64,000 bases of DNA from NCBI GenBank assembly GCA_015069095.1, contig SVJH01000004.1, positions 1-64,000 of the forward strand, given 5' to 3'. The notes under the pieces are model-generated. The model had not been told where the DNA came from and searched no databases. It saw only the letters and a program-made list of their open reading frames with translations. This DNA is from Oscillospiraceae bacterium (GTDB lineage: Bacteria > Bacillota > Clostridia > UMGS1810). Shown here piece after piece: positions 13,321-23,561 of the stretch. The position numbers and the translations under genes are program-made. The stretch's first letter is position 1. Each line of letters starts with the position of its first letter.

Positions 13321-13349
13321 TTGAAAAATTTTACTAAATGTGGTATATT
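13321..13349 (+). promoter_or_regulatory. Promoter of the glycosyltransferase-CsaB gene
   Basis: TTGAAA (13321-13326), 17 bases, TATATT (13344-13349), 30 bases before the ATG at 13380. Confidence 0.6.
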
Positions 13350-13379
13350 CTAATAGAGTATTTACTTGGTGGTGAAAAA

Positions 13380-15626
13380 ATGAAAAAGAAAACAAGAATT
13401 CTGATTACACTTATGGGTCTTGAAATAGGCGGCGCAGAAACTCACGTAGTTGAACTTTGCAAATATCTTTCAAAAAATGGATATTTAGTTTATGTTGCAT
13501 CAAATGGCGGTATATATGAAAAAGTACTTGAAAAACATGGCATAAAACACATCTATGCACCACTTACAAGTAAAAATCCATATAAAATGTATTCTGCATA
13601 CAAAATAATAAAAAAAGCAGTAATTGACAACAAAATAGACCTTATACATTCTCACGCAAGAATTCCTGCATTTGTAAGTTCATTTGTTCACAAACGTTTA
13701 AAAGTACCGTTTATGACTACTGTTCACGGTGTTTACTCTACAGACTTCTTATTTAAACTTCTTACAAACTGGGGACAAAAAACAATTTGTGTAAGCGAAG
13801 ACATAAAAAGTTATGTTTTAAATAACTACAATATCAAAGAAGAAAACACTTTTGTTACAATTAACGGAATAGATACATCTAAATTTTCGCCGGAAACAGA
13901 TTATTCTGATTTATATAAAGAGTTCGGCTTGACTGACGACGATTTTAAAATTGTGTATGTAAGCCGTCTTGATGATGGAAACTGCAATATGGCGTACAAA
14001 CTTTTAAATATATCACAAAAACTTTATGATATTATACCGAATGCAAAAATCATAATGGTTGGCGATGGAAATAAGTTTAGTGAAATAAATGAAAAAGCAA
14101 ATAACTTGCCACATAAAAATGTTATTATGGCAGGAAGCAGAACGGATGTTGATAAATTTACCTCTCTAAGTGATGTATTTATTGGTATAAGCCGTGCTGC
14201 ACTTGAAGCAATGTCATCGAGAAATATTGTTCTTCTAGGTGGCGACCCAGGATATATGGGAATATTTAGAGAAGATATTCTTGAAGAATGTTTTAATAAT
14301 AATTTTACTTGCAGAAACACCAATCCGCTTGATGAAAATAGTTTGTTAAATGATATAATTTCAGTAAGTAAAATGAATGAAGATGAAAAAGACAAACTTA
14401 AAGATTTTGGGCAAAAACTTATTTTCGATAAATATTCTGTAAAAACTATGGCTGATGATAATATAAAAGTATACGAAAAATTACTTTCAGAAAATAATTA
14501 CTCATACGATTTTGTTATATCGGGCTACTATGGATTTAACAACAGTGGTGATGATGCACTACTTATGGCAATGATAAATGATATAAAAGAAAACGATGAA
14601 AATGCGCGAATTGTTGTATTGTCTAAAAATCCAAAAGAAACCCGAAAACTTTATGGAGTTGACTCAATAAACAGATTTAATCTTCCAAAGATTAAAAAAG
14701 TATTTGAAAAATCAAAAGTTCTTTTAAGTGGAGGTGGCTCCCTACTTCAGGATATTACAAGTACAAAGTCGATTTGGTATTATCTTTCGATTATTAAATA
14801 TGCAATTAAGAAAAAAGTTGATGTTTTTGTCTATGCAAACGGTATAGGTCCTATCAACAAAGAAAAAAACCGAAAAAGGACAAAAGAAATTTTATCAAAT
14901 GTTAATCTTATTACATTGCGCGATGCTGACTCAAAACATCTTTTAAATGAAATTGGAGTAAATAACGTAAAGACAATTATTACCGCTGATCCTGCATTTT
15001 CACTAAAAAAATGTGATGATGAAAAAATTTGCAATATATTGAAAGATGAAAACATAGACTGTAAAAAGAATCTTATTGCCATTTCAATAAGAGATTGGAA
15101 AAATGCGTCAAAAGATTTCGAAAAAGTTATTGCACAAAAAATTGATGATATTTGCAAAAAATATGGTTTTACGCCACTGTTTTTACCTATGCAATATCCT
15201 TTCGATTTAGAATTTTCAAAAAGAGTAATTAGCAAGTTAAATGTTGAAAGTTATATTGTAAAAAAACAATATTCAGGCGAAATATTGTCAGGTATCATAA
15301 ATAAATGCAAACTAACCATTGCTATGAGACTTCACGCACTTATTTATTCAACAAGCGCAAATGTACCTGTGTTTGGTATTGTTTATGATCCGAAAGTTGA
15401 TAGTCTTTTAAAGTATACTAATCAACCTTACTGTGTTGATATTAGCGAAGTCGACTCTCAAAAATTCTTTGACGAATTTGATAATTTAATGAAAAATATT
15501 GATGAAGTTAATTCTAATCTTAGCATAACACTTGAAAAACTTGAACAGAAAGCGTTTTTGAATTCATCATATGCTATAAAACTTTTAAATAAAGAGGAGG
15601 TAAATGATGAGAATTCTTGGAATTGA
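13380..15626 (+). CDS. csaB: Bifunctional GT4 glycosyltransferase fused to CsaB-type polysaccharide pyruvyl transferase
   Basis: A 748-residue fusion. Residues 1-370 are a GT-B fold glycosyltransferase of the GT4 type: GGAETHVVELC at the N-terminus, IHSHARIPA, VYVSRLDDG, and the donor-site segment GISRAALEAMS with its Glu near 276. Residues 376-748 are a pyruvyl transferase: FVISGYYGFNNSGDDALL (379-396), LLSGGGSLLQD (448-458) and AMRLHALIYS near the C-terminus. CsaB adds pyruvate ketals to secondary cell wall polymers that bind SLH-domain S-layer proteins. The fusion suggests one protein both builds and caps the polymer unit. The start MKKKTRIL fits ggtggtg at 6 bases. It overlaps ruvX by 20 bases. 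Confidence 0.92.
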   Translation: MKKKTRILITLMGLEIGGAETHVVELCKYLSKNGYLVYVASNGGIYEKVLEKHGIKHIYAPLTSKNPYKMYSAYKIIKKAVIDNKIDLIHSHARIPAFVSSFVHKRLKVPFMTTVHGVYSTDFLFKLLTNWGQKTICVSEDIKSYVLNNYNIKEENTFVTINGIDTSKFSPETDYSDLYKEFGLTDDDFKIVYVSRLDDGNCNMAYKLLNISQKLYDIIPNAKIIMVGDGNKFSEINEKANNLPHKNVIMAGSRTDVDKFTSLSDVFIGISRAALEAMSSRNIVLLGGDPGYMGIFREDILEECFNNNFTCRNTNPLDENSLLNDIISVSKMNEDEKDKLKDFGQKLIFDKYSVKTMADDNIKVYEKLLSENNYSYDFVISGYYGFNNSGDDALLMAMINDIKENDENARIVVLSKNPKETRKLYGVDSINRFNLPKIKKVFEKSKVLLSGGGSLLQDITSTKSIWYYLSIIKYAIKKKVDVFVYANGIGPINKEKNRKRTKEILSNVNLITLRDADSKHLLNEIGVNNVKTIITADPAFSLKKCDDEKICNILKDENIDCKKNLIAISIRDWKNASKDFEKVIAQKIDDICKKYGFTPLFLPMQYPFDLEFSKRVISKLNVESYIVKKQYSGEILSGIINKCKLTIAMRLHALIYSTSANVPVFGIVYDPKVDSLLKYTNQPYCVDISEVDSQKFFDEFDNLMKNIDEVNSNLSITLEKLEQKAFLNSSYAIKLLNKEEVNDENSWN

Positions 15627-18991: not shown

Positions 18992-19000
18992 TGATATAAT
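18992..19000 (+). promoter_or_regulatory. Extended -10 promoter of the amino-sugar operon
   Basis: TGATATAAT, an extended -10 element (TGN plus a perfect TATAAT), 48 bases before the first gene. No good -35 box is seen at the right distance, which suits an extended -10 or an activator-dependent promoter. Confidence 0.5.
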
Positions 19001-19048: not shown

Positions 19049-19891
19049 ATGGAAACTTCTCTACTAATTCTTGCTGCAGGAATGGGCAGCAGATTCGGCG
19101 GTCTTAAACAAATTGCTCCTATTGGACCAAACGGCGAAACTATTCTTGATTTCTCTATATATGATGCAATTGAAGCCGGATTTAACGAAATTGTTTTCAT
19201 CATAAAAAAAGAAATTGAAGAAGATTTCAAAGAAGTTATAGGCAAAAGATGGGAAGGAAAAATTAAAATTACATATACTTTCCAATCTAATGACAAAGTT
19301 CCTTCATTTTTTGATTCATCTAAAAGGCAAAAACCACTTGGCACAGCGCACGCTGTTCTTTGTGCAAAAGATGCTCTTGACAAACCTTTTGCTGTTATAA
19401 ATGCAGACGATTTTTACGGAAAAAATTCTTTTAAATTAGTACACGATTTTCTTGTTAACAACGAAAATGATAATTGTCTTATCGGGTTTAAACTTTTAAA
19501 TACACTTTCTGACAATGGTAGTGTTTCAAGAGGTGTTTGTGAAGTTGAAAATGGCAATTTAAAGAGTGTAACAGAATGCACTGCAATCACCAAAGATAGT
19601 GATTACGATATGAACTCTACTGTTTCTATGAATATGTGGGGGCTCAATCCATCACTTTTGGAAGATATGGAAAAGTATTTCCATGACTTTTTAAGTAACA
19701 TTAAGAATGTCGAAAAAGACGAATGCTATCTTCCACTTTTTATAGATACACAAATTAAAGAAAAAGATTTGAAAGTAAAAGTACTACAAAGCGATGAAAA
19801 ATGGTACGGTATGACATACAAAGAAGATATTGACGGCGTAAAAGAAGCTATTAAATTACTTGTTGATAAGGGGTATTATGATGGGATATAA
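19049..19891 (+). CDS. Sugar-1-phosphate nucleotidyltransferase, probably paired with the downstream kinase
   Basis: A 280-residue GT-A type nucleotidyltransferase. LILAAGMGSRFGGLKQ (6-21) is the nucleotide-binding loop and FAVINADDFYG (114-124) gives the metal-binding Asp. GTAHAVLCA is typical of sugar-phosphate uridylyl- or guanylyltransferases. It makes an NDP-sugar from a sugar 1-phosphate. The next gene overlaps its end and codes for a NahK-like kinase that produces hexosamine 1-phosphates, so an N-acetylhexosamine 1-phosphate substrate is a reasonable inference. The gene is the first of four. Confidence 0.85.
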   Translation: METSLLILAAGMGSRFGGLKQIAPIGPNGETILDFSIYDAIEAGFNEIVFIIKKEIEEDFKEVIGKRWEGKIKITYTFQSNDKVPSFFDSSKRQKPLGTAHAVLCAKDALDKPFAVINADDFYGKNSFKLVHDFLVNNENDNCLIGFKLLNTLSDNGSVSRGVCEVENGNLKSVTECTAITKDSDYDMNSTVSMNMWGLNPSLLEDMEKYFHDFLSNIKNVEKDECYLPLFIDTQIKEKDLKVKVLQSDEKWYGMTYKEDIDGVKEAIKLLVDKGYYDGI

Positions 19892-20963
19892 TCTCAATGA
19901 AATCTTACGAAACTTCAAAGTAGAAGCTGACATAGCTTCTTATGGTAACGGACATATCAATGATACTTACATCGTGGAAATGAATCCAAAATACATTCTT
20001 CAAAGAATAAATACAGATATTTTTTCTGACCCTTTTGATGTAATGGAAAACATTTCAAATGTAACAACACATATCAGAAAAAAAACAATTGAAAACGGCG
20101 GTAATCCTGACCGCGAAGTTTTAACTGTAATACATACAATAAACGATGAAACTTTTTATAAATGCGAAGATGGTTCATGTTTCAGACTTTATAAATTTAT
20201 TGACAAAGCCATTTCGTATGACATTGTTGACGATCCAAAAAAACTAAAAAGTGCTGGTGTTGCATTTGGCAAATTTCAGAAATATCTTTCCGATTTTCCA
20301 ATGGAAAAACTTCACGAAACAATTAAAGATTTCCACAACACACCAGTAAGATTTGAAGCATTTAAAAAGGCACTTAGTGATGACAAAGCTTCAAGAGCAA
20401 AAGATGCTTGCGATGAAATTAAATTTGTACTTGACAGAGCACACTACTGTGATGTGGTTGTAAATGAAATTAAGAGTGGAAATATTCCTCTCAGAGTTAC
20501 ACACAATGACACAAAACTAAACAATGTAATGCTTGATGCAAAAACAAATGAAGGTGTTTGTGTAATCGACCTTGACACTGTAATGCCTGGTTCTCTTTTA
20601 TACGATTATGGCGATGCACTACGTTTTGGCGCAAATACAGGTGCTGAAGATGAAGCTGATCTTTCTAAAGTAAACTTTTCAGATGAAATGTTTGAAGCAT
20701 TTACAGAAGGATTTTTGTCTCAGGTTAAAGACACTCTTACAGAAAAGGAAAAAGAAAATCTTGTATTCAGCATAAAACTTATGACATTCGAGTGTGGAAT
20801 GAGATTTTTAACAGACTATTTAAACGGTGATACTTACTTTAAAGTTCACAAAAAAGATCACAACCTACTTAGATGCAGAACTCAATTTAAACTTATTTCT
20901 GACATCGAAAGTAAAGAAGAAAAACTGAATAAAAAACTAAACGAAATAATCCAAAATTTATGA
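19881..20963 (+). CDS. NahK-like N-acetylhexosamine 1-kinase (aminoglycoside phosphotransferase fold)
   Basis: A 360-residue kinase of the APH fold. The catalytic loop is VTHNDTKLNNVMLD (206-219, Asp210) and the metal site is VCVIDLDTVMPGSLLYDYGDALR (Asp230 region), both as in bifidobacterial NahK, which phosphorylates GlcNAc and GalNAc at C1. ATG codons at 19878 and 19881 follow aagggg; the second is 7 bases away and was chosen. It overlaps the nucleotidyltransferase by 11 bases, which implies coupled translation and supports a two-step salvage from free hexosamine to nucleotide sugar. Other anomeric kinase substrates cannot be excluded. Confidence 0.85.
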   Translation: MGYNLNEILRNFKVEADIASYGNGHINDTYIVEMNPKYILQRINTDIFSDPFDVMENISNVTTHIRKKTIENGGNPDREVLTVIHTINDETFYKCEDGSCFRLYKFIDKAISYDIVDDPKKLKSAGVAFGKFQKYLSDFPMEKLHETIKDFHNTPVRFEAFKKALSDDKASRAKDACDEIKFVLDRAHYCDVVVNEIKSGNIPLRVTHNDTKLNNVMLDAKTNEGVCVIDLDTVMPGSLLYDYGDALRFGANTGAEDEADLSKVNFSDEMFEAFTEGFLSQVKDTLTEKEKENLVFSIKLMTFECGMRFLTDYLNGDTYFKVHKKDHNLLRCRTQFKLISDIESKEEKLNKKLNEIIQNL

Positions 20964-20975
20964 GGAAGTGTTTTT

Positions 20976-22769
20976 ATGAACAAAGAATTTGAAAAAATCA
21001 TTTTTGATTTGGTAGATTTTAAATTTGAAAAAGAGATTAAATACACTAATTTTGATGGCGTTTTAGTTGAATATAATGGTACAAGTGCGACCATTGGTTA
21101 TGAAGATAAACCCTCTTTAACAAGAGGGTTATTCTTACTTTCACAGGAAATTTCAAAAGGAAATAAAAATTTTAAAATAGAGCAAAAGAAGCATTTTAAA
21201 GAATGCGGTGTTATGCTTGACTGTTCAAGAAATGCTGTAATGACTGTAAAAAGTGTAAAGAAATACATTGAATATATGGCAGCACTTGGGCTTAATCTTT
21301 TAATGCTTTACACTGAAGATACATATGAAATAAAAGAATACCCTTACTTTGGTTATTTAAGAGGAAGATATACAGAAGAAGAAATCAAAGAAATCGACTC
21401 ATATGCTCAAAAATTCGGCATAGAAGTTGTTCCTTGTGTTCAAACACTTGCGCATCTTTTTCAGTTTTTAAAATGGAATAATCCAAGTGCAATAAAAGAT
21501 ACAAATGATATTCTGCTAATTGATGAAGATGAAACTTATAATTTTATTGAATGTGCAATAAAAACACTAAGAAATATGTTTTCATCAAAGAGAATTCACA
21601 TTGGTATGGATGAAGCGCACGATGTCGGACTTGGAAAATTTCTTGATAAAAACGGATATCAGAACAGATTTGACATACTTAACAGACATCTTGCAAAAGT
21701 TGTTGATATATGCAAAAAATACAACTTTAAACCTATGATGTGGTCAGATATGTTCTTCCGTCTTGCATCCCCTACCCACGATTATTATGACGATGCACCA
21801 ATACCTGATGAAGTAATCAGCAAAATACCAGAAGTTGATATGGTGTACTGGGATTATTACAAAACAAGTAAGGACATATATATAAAACAAATAAAAAGAC
21901 ATAAACCGTTAAATAAACCTATTATATTTGCCGGTGGCATTTCAATGTGGTACGGCCCGGTACCTGATTTTGACTATACAGTTTCAACAAGCACATGTGC
22001 ACTTACGGCATGTCTTGAAGAAGGTATTGAAAGTGTTTTTGCTACTATGTGGGGCGATAACGGAAATGAATGTAATCATTTTCTTACAATGCCACTTTTA
22101 CCTTTATATTCAGAATATTTCTACCGCGGATTAAATTGTACAGAAGATGACATAAAAGATGTTTCTGAATTTTTAACTAAACAACCATATGAAGTGTCAC
22201 GTGCAATAGGAAATTTTAATCTGCATGATGAAGAATTCCTTCATCAGTCAAAAGCACTAATATACAACGATATTCTTTATCAACTTGGTCTTTATTACTC
22301 AAAATATGAAATTATGCATAATCGATATAAAGAAAATTGCAAAATTTTAAAACTAATGATTGACAAAAACGACAAAAATGTATTATATTATGAATATGCT
22401 TATATGCTCAACAGAATATGCGAAATCAAATCCGACTTAATTATGAACATTCAAAAAGAATACAAAAACGGTAATAAAACCTACCTTAAAAACCTTACAG
22501 AAGTTGTTTTGCCAGATTTAAAAGAAAAATATGCTGCTTTAAAATCAATACATAAAAAACTTTGGTATTCAACATATAAACCATTTGGATTTGAAGTATT
22601 AAGCATAAGATACGGCGGTGTTATTTCAAGAATTGACGATACAATCGAAACAATTTCAGATTATGTCGAAGGGAAAATTTTATCAATTGCCGAACTTGAC
22701 GAAGAAAAACTTAATTTTAAAATGAATAATCAAGCAGTAAGGGCGATGACGCCCACTCATTTATTATAA
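20976..22769 (+). CDS. Glycoside hydrolase family 20 enzyme (hexosaminidase-like)
   Basis: A 597-residue protein. Residues 70-400 form the GH20 TIM barrel, with KECGVMLDCSRNAVMTV at its start and the catalytic Asp-Glu pair in HIGMDEAHD (Asp212, Glu213). GH20 enzymes remove terminal GlcNAc or GalNAc by substrate-assisted catalysis. There is no signal peptide, so it works on imported oligosaccharides in the cytosol. The C-terminal 190 residues are helical and unassigned. The context (NahK-like kinase before, nagB after) shows an amino-sugar role. A gaggaagtg ribosome-binding site lies before the start. Confidence 0.87.
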   Translation: MNKEFEKIIFDLVDFKFEKEIKYTNFDGVLVEYNGTSATIGYEDKPSLTRGLFLLSQEISKGNKNFKIEQKKHFKECGVMLDCSRNAVMTVKSVKKYIEYMAALGLNLLMLYTEDTYEIKEYPYFGYLRGRYTEEEIKEIDSYAQKFGIEVVPCVQTLAHLFQFLKWNNPSAIKDTNDILLIDEDETYNFIECAIKTLRNMFSSKRIHIGMDEAHDVGLGKFLDKNGYQNRFDILNRHLAKVVDICKKYNFKPMMWSDMFFRLASPTHDYYDDAPIPDEVISKIPEVDMVYWDYYKTSKDIYIKQIKRHKPLNKPIIFAGGISMWYGPVPDFDYTVSTSTCALTACLEEGIESVFATMWGDNGNECNHFLTMPLLPLYSEYFYRGLNCTEDDIKDVSEFLTKQPYEVSRAIGNFNLHDEEFLHQSKALIYNDILYQLGLYYSKYEIMHNRYKENCKILKLMIDKNDKNVLYYEYAYMLNRICEIKSDLIMNIQKEYKNGNKTYLKNLTEVVLPDLKEKYAALKSIHKKLWYSTYKPFGFEVLSIRYGGVISRIDDTIETISDYVEGKILSIAELDEEKLNFKMNNQAVRAMTPTHLL

Positions 22770-22794
22770 TAGATTTGTAAAGGAGAGTTAAAAA

Positions 22795-23520
22795 ATGAGA
22801 GTAATTATTTGCGAAAACTATGATGAAATGTCGAAAGAAGGTGCTAAAATCGTTGCAAGTCAGATAACATTAAAACCTGATTCTATTTTAGGTCTTGCAA
22901 CAGGTTCTACTCCAATAGGATTATATAAAAATCTTATTGAACTAAATAAGAATAAGGAAATTGATTTTTCATGTGTTAAATCTTTTAACCTTGATGAATA
23001 CTATCCTATCAGCCGTGAAAACGACCAGAGTTATTTTTATTTTATGAATGACAATCTTTTTAATCATGTTAATATTGATAAAAATAACACACACGTTCCA
23101 AACGGCGAAACAAAAAATGCAGAAGAAGAATGCAAAAACTATGACAAAATGATTGATAAAGCAGGTGGAATTGACCTTCAGATTTTAGGTATCGGTCAAA
23201 ATGGTCATATTGCATTTAATGAACCTGACAAAAACCTTATTACAGGAACACACGTTACTTCACTTACACAAAATACAATAGAAGCAAATTCACGCTTTTT
23301 TAATGATATTTCAGAAGTTCCAACTAAAGCACTTACAATGGGTATTGGCTCAATTATGAAAGCTAAAAAAATTATTATTCTTATTAACGGTGAAAACAAA
23401 CACGCTGCTTTAAAAGAACTTTTAAACGAAAATATCACAACTGATATTCCTGCTACATTACTTAAAGTACATCCTGATGTTGTACTTATCTGTGATAAAG
23501 CAGCATACTATGGTAAATAA
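22795..23520 (+). CDS. nagB: Glucosamine-6-phosphate deaminase
   Basis: A 241-residue enzyme converting glucosamine 6-phosphate to fructose 6-phosphate and ammonia. Signature segments are [11 protein letters not shown] (34-44), FNLDEYYP (64-71, with the catalytic Asp67) and [14 protein letters not shown] (131-144, His138). It is the last gene of the operon, 25 bases after the GH20 gene. No nagA (deacetylase) lies in the window, so its N-acetyl substrates must be deacetylated by a gene elsewhere. Confidence 0.96.
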
Positions 23521-23528
23521 TTGACTTT

Positions 23529-23561
23529 AAAAGGAACAAAACATTAAGTTTTGTTCCTTTT
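23529..23561 (+). terminator. Terminator of the amino-sugar operon
   Basis: Perfect 14-base stem AAAAGGAACAAAAC/GTTTTGTTCCTTTT with an ATTAA loop. Confidence 0.9.

Follow-up and report, generated by a model that had tools for sequence, protein, structure and literature searches.

An operon of an Oscillospiraceae bacterium that joins a gene for a nucleotidyltransferase (hereafter NTP) to one for an N-acetylhexosamine kinase raises the question of whether it recycles amino sugars beside the GlmU pathway or stands in for part of that pathway. The operon lies in the first 64,000 nucleotides of contig SVJH01000004.1 (GenBank assembly GCA_015069095.1), the stretch of DNA analyzed here and referred to below as the window. 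The initial annotation, made from the window alone, saw in it a direct recycling route that bypasses the 6-phosphate and uses a nucleotidyltransferase other than GlmU. The gene content of the whole genome and of its relatives leads us to a different answer, in which the NTP likely replaces the uridylyltransferase domain of GlmU.

Organization of the operon

The four genes are encoded on the forward strand and, in the list of open reading frames, follow the order NTP, NahK-type kinase, GcnA/GH20C hexosaminidase, NagB (Table 1). Positions 19049-23520 look like a single transcription unit, and the four-gene operon of the initial annotation is confirmed by the reading frames, by the short intergenic gaps (12 bp between kinase and GH20, 25 bp between GH20 and nagB), by a promoter-like box upstream of the NTP and by a terminal hairpin. 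The gene after nagB encodes glutamine synthetase and has a separate consensus promoter. The kinase start is placed at the ATG at 19878, the longest frame being opened by a TTG at 19860. Elsewhere in the window, at 13338-15626, a glycosyltransferase is apparently fused to a polysaccharide-pyruvyltransferase-like domain, as read from the sequence.

Table 1 Features of the operon and its flanks, in window coordinates.
Feature	Position	Strand	Basis
Extended -10 promoter-like element TGATATAAT	18992..19000	+	sequence; consensus match only
NTP, 3PNN-family sugar-1-phosphate nucleotidyltransferase; proposed GlcNAc-1-P uridylyltransferase	19049..19891	+	homology, AlphaFold model
NTP/kinase gene overlap, 14 bp; length identical in several relatives	19878..19891	+	
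NahK-type N-acetylhexosamine 1-kinase	19878..20963	+	homology
GcnA/GH20C-type beta-N-acetylhexosaminidase, presumably cytosolic	20976..22769	+	Pfam, homology
NagB glucosamine-6-phosphate deaminase	22795..23520	+	Pfam, TIGR00502
Perfect inverted repeat ending TTTT, likely operon terminator	23529..23561	+	sequence; not listed by scan

Three of the four enzymes, namely the kinase, the GH20 and NagB, can be identified firmly by homology. The kinase, with a Pfam APH domain (3e-15), aligns over nearly its full length with the solved N-acetylhexosamine 1-kinases 4OCU and 4WH1 (E 3e-103), and its APH catalytic motifs, THND and IDLD, align with those of 4OCU. The NahK-like kinase of the initial annotation is thereby upheld, and phosphorylation of GlcNAc or GalNAc at C1 is predicted. 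The hexosaminidase combines the Pfam domains Glyco_hydro_20 and Glyco_H_20C_C (PF18088), matches GcnA (2EPK, E 1.5e-107) and the GH20C of pneumococcus (5A69, E 1.4e-95) and has an intact Asp-Glu pair (GMDEAH), all of which place it in the GcnA/GH20C group; no signal peptide was seen on reading its sequence, and the enzyme is presumably cytosolic. Two more GH20C copies are found elsewhere in the genome. NagB matches Pfam Glucosamine_iso and scores 306.4 bits on TIGR00502, above the cut-off of 236.9.

Family and fold of the nucleotidyltransferase

The fourth protein, a Pfam NTP_transferase member (5e-13), aligns with 3PNN from end to end (E 5.5e-68), and its AlphaFold model (pLDDT 91) matches that structure at a Z of 36.6 and 42% identity, so that both sequence and fold place it among the 3PNN-type nucleotidyltransferases. 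The namesake of this family is a structural-genomics protein from Porphyromonas gingivalis W83, a solved structure labelled glycosyltransferase or conserved domain protein and without an assigned function. Every named nucleotidyltransferase model that the NTP touches gives a score far under its cut-off: the GlmU model TIGR01173 yields 15.2 bits against 366.85, in agreement with the non-GlmU enzyme described in the initial annotation, and MurU (NF045761, 17.4 bits against 250) and GalU (TIGR01099, 27.4 bits against 326.8) are rejected on the same grounds. Comparison of folds does not choose among GlmU, GalU and RmlA, which are tied at about equal similarity to the model (Z 22-24.5).

A profile alignment of the NTP with GlmU puts GT.HA on invariant NTP residues, together with the Glu and Asn through which GlmU contacts its sugar. 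That these two residues have the matching role in the NTP is inferred from the alignment. The NTP is not a GlmU, but it may have a function like that of the GlmU N-domain. The family may have further roles, as one homologue is carried by the Ruminococcus albus 7 conjugative plasmid pRUMAL02 (L338:4001-4909) and another, from Parabacteroides, adjoins an arabinofuranosidase (L336:4001-4903).

GlmU and other nucleotidyltransferases in the genome

A search of the genome with the GlmU model recovers the C-terminal acetyltransferase half only. This 222-aa protein keeps the acetyltransferase sequence, and its gene, which lies inside a contig, has its own promoter-like site and RBS and is followed by prs and pth. 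No N-half was found elsewhere in the ~2.07 Mb of genome read in stretches. G003, a genome of the same family, encodes a full GlmU whose C-half shares 75% identity with the surviving half, so the loss of the N-half looks recent. The presence of GlmS, GlmM, two MurA, WecA and WecB indicates that UDP-GlcNAc is needed, and without a GlmU uridylyltransferase domain it would have to come from the operon NTP, from a second NTP encoded at a locus that we call C35, or from a type of enzyme outside our search. Given this missing domain, and given that the NTP tracks loss or decay of the same domain across the class (see below), the organism probably relies mainly on the NTP to form UDP-GlcNAc; for the same two reasons, the idea of a recycling bypass running beside GlmU is probably wrong.

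The remaining nucleotidyltransferases found in the genome are RmlA, IspD, a GlgC-like one and the C35 NTP. The last of these, a 247-aa protein closest to AglF, is encoded together with a galactokinase-like GHMP kinase by overlapping genes (L120:1258-3179, reverse strand), and the C35 pair is a parallel module and the main rival within the genome. Were this pair to make UDP-GlcNAc, the operon NTP would make another UDP-sugar, for example UDP-glucose in place of GalU, which was not found in ~2.07 Mb of genome and whose absence leaves such a role vacant; the C35 NTP is a genuine alternative, and among solved structures GalU enzymes come directly after 3PNN in sequence similarity to the operon NTP. 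We nevertheless consider this division of labor unlikely, as the galactokinase-like partner of the C35 NTP and its best model, UTP-glucose-1-P uridylyltransferase (AglF), are a better fit to UDP-Glc or UDP-Gal, whereas the operon NTP adjoins or is fused with NahK, occurs near nagB and nagA, and follows the loss of the GlmU N-domain.

Gene order in relatives

Among 109 kinase loci, an approximate count in which a few are the same place fetched twice, the NTP gene lies directly upstream of the kinase gene in 47. The small overlap between them keeps its length at several loci. In two cases, uncultured Clostridiales RUG223 (L099:7083-9089) and Clostridium sp. MCC353 (L102:7089-9086), NTP and kinase are fused in one reading frame. 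The tight coupling that the initial annotation had read from the overlap is borne out by its conserved 14-bp length and by these two natural fusions. A GH20C gene occurs at no other kinase locus, which rejects it as a conserved partner and makes its position in this operon lineage-specific; of the gene order whose survey in relatives had been suggested, the NTP-kinase part recurs and the GH20C part does not. In a GlmU-less genome (G032), the NTP gene is followed by nagB and the kinase gene does not adjoin.

The lack of a lacto-N-biose phosphorylase, noted initially for the operon, extends to the genome: a GH112 protein of a relative, used as query, has no match in ~2.07 Mb, and the absence rests on this real GH112 query, as a PF09508 search was silent in control genomes too. 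The reading of the locus as a lacto-N-biose operon is therefore rejected. A looser kinship with bifidobacterial lnpBCD would make NTP, kinase and, in relatives, GalE a catabolic GalNAc-to-GlcNAc shuttle, in which UDP-sugars are catalytic intermediates, NagB is the exit to glycolysis and the replacement of GlmU arises in some lineages as a side effect. Such a shuttle would account for the galE-like gene beside the NTP-kinase pair at 13 loci (in the order NTP-kinase-galE or galE-NTP-kinase, with the identity of galE checked on representatives), for GH112 at 5 loci and nagA at 4, with nagB also a neighbor, and for nagB inside the operon and four NagA-like proteins in the genome studied here. We judge it to be quite improbable, since galE and GH112 are absent from the operon, no close GalE was found in the genome (GalK and GalT are present), and three genomes in which the GlmU N-domain is lost or decayed (G016, G039 and G055) have the NTP without the kinase.

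Association with loss of the GlmU N-domain

We compared the state of GlmU with the presence of the NTP in 392 genomes of the class, mostly MAGs and all at least 95% complete. The NTP is present in 33 of the 220 genomes whose GlmU is full-length, in 50 of the 97 where it is partial and in 27 of the 75 that have none (p 1e-10); the partial state covers lone C-halves and decayed N-domains as well as split genes and contig ends. Taken together, 77 of the 172 genomes without full-length GlmU carry the NTP. The association persists when stratified by family (p = 1.6e-7) and at one row per genus (p = 0.007), and family f7 is the cleanest case, with the NTP in 10/10 genomes with non-full GlmU and 0/10 with full GlmU. 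Its occurrence in the 33 genomes with full GlmU indicates that the NTP is not only a replacement.

Aligned GlmU sequences reveal how the N-domain decays. In six genomes (G005, G021, G022, G026, G039 and G056), most catalytic and sugar-binding residues of this domain are lost while the frame stays open, which is not what an assembly gap would produce, and in G019 some are lost; all seven carry the NTP. The residues are kept in 14 of the 15 aligned genomes without the NTP (G045 with two changes), and the one departure is G046, a MAG of 62% completeness that has another N-half on a different contig. The poorly resolved tree of the GlmU C-domain requires seven changes to explain where the N-domain is decayed or lost. 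An alternative is that phylogeny or assembly creates the link with GlmU loss artefactually and that the operon is just an optional salvage module of unspecified sugar specificity. This might be argued from the MAG-based data, from several families that vary as blocks and from an independent-pairs test on this tree, which has just 2 supported pairs and hence no power, but it is very unlikely, as the association survives family stratification and genus collapse, N-domains decayed within an open frame cannot be assembly gaps, and the truncated GlmU gene here lies within its contig with its own start signals.

Among 19 relatives that are at least 90% complete and have lost or decayed N-domains, 13 have the NTP, 4 have a UDPGP enzyme (PF01704) and 2, both very small and of family f6, have neither; the NTP and the PF01704 enzyme never occur together among 60 relatives. 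UDPGP-type enzymes are apparently a second kind of GlmU replacement elsewhere in the class. They are seen in G029, G040, G048 and G052, where GlmU is lost or partial, with two in tandem in G052. G020, G058 and other members of family f6 have small genomes with lone or partial GlmU, and G020 and G058 carry neither NTP nor UDPGP enzyme.

Proposed role of the operon

We think it likely that the operon feeds and runs the UDP-HexNAc node, with the NTP as a non-orthologous replacement of the GlmU N-domain in both de novo synthesis and salvage, and with the kinase as the salvage entry. Gene content, operon layout, the domain loss in this genome and the cross-genome association are observed, and from them we infer every reaction and substrate. 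The conversion of HexNAc through HexNAc-1-P to UDP-HexNAc is plausible from homology and context. The GH20C enzyme would cut beta-linked GlcNAc or GalNAc oligosaccharides that reach the cytosol, and the NahK-type kinase would use ATP to phosphorylate the released HexNAc at C1. The NTP would then join HexNAc-1-P to UMP from UTP, forming UDP-GlcNAc and probably UDP-GalNAc too. De novo synthesis through GlmS, GlmM and the acetyltransferase half that remains of GlmU would supply it with GlcNAc-1-P as well, the kinase being a salvage entrance to the same UDP-sugar pool, and NagB would connect glucosamine-6-P with fructose-6-P.

Some relatives may go further. Of the 60 relatives, 13 carry NTP and kinase while neither GlmU half is detectable, and five of these 13 are at least 90% complete. 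In them the NahK-NTP pair could be the sole route to UDP-GlcNAc, so that cell-wall precursors would be made from free GlcNAc without acetylation of GlcN-1-P, a possibility that we raise tentatively and regard as doubtful. The kinase is commoner where GlmU is wholly absent (34/75 genomes without any GlmU, 23/220 with full GlmU), which keeps reliance on the pair alone possible in some relatives. The persistence of GlmM speaks against it, unless GlmM has another task: it is present in nearly all genomes, including most of those without GlmU, and its near-universality in the set led us to reject the idea that a disused GlcN-1-P route would show up as missing GlmM. If the pair is the sole route, such bacteria would depend on a supply of amino sugars or on internal release of GlcNAc.

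Relation to known systems

Model bacteria cannot live without GlmU, which is a drug target. In ~10% of genomes the pathways to UDP-GlcNAc look incomplete (PMC7725333), and what becomes of the GlcNAc-1-P made by NahK has been described as open (PMC9599254). If our reading is true, the 3PNN family fills both gaps in many clostridial genomes, the repeated decay of the first GlmU domain is explained, and free HexNAc reaches UDP-HexNAc by a two-enzyme, sometimes single-chain, route. We propose as new the role of the 3PNN family and its link with repeated loss of the GlmU N-domain; searches of the open-access literature on 3PNN, on GlmU that is missing or truncated and on NahK paired with a nucleotidyltransferase turned up no earlier assignment.

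The logic of NahK plus a uridylyltransferase is known from bifidobacterial lnp operons (PMC9599254). Like lnpABCD (GH112, NahK/LnpB, LnpC and GalE/LnpD), the operon couples a NahK-type kinase with an enzyme that turns hexose-1-P into UDP-sugar, and galE joins the pair in many relatives. Unlike lnpABCD, it has no GH112 or galE, it includes GH20C and nagB, and its transferase is of the 3PNN family rather than LnpC, which we take to be a UDPGP-type enzyme. The GH20 shares its subtype, with the C-terminal PF18088 domain, with streptococcal GcnA and pneumococcal GH20C, although its gene here shares an operon with kinase, NTP and nagB.

Recycling by a kinase plus a nucleotidyltransferase is known from AmgK-MurU, the MurNAc system in which an anomeric APH-fold kinase and a nucleotidyltransferase likewise turn a free sugar directly into a UDP-sugar. 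In contrast to that system, the kinase here is of the NahK type, and the NTP reaches just 17.4 of the 250 bits set for MurU. With GlmU, the NTP would have in common the conversion of GlcNAc-1-P and UTP into UDP-GlcNAc, and it shares the nucleotidyltransferase fold, the GT.HA motif and counterparts of the Glu and Asn residues. It differs from GlmU in that the profiles are 24% identical and the NTP stands alone, without an acetyltransferase domain, in an operon or fusion with the kinase.
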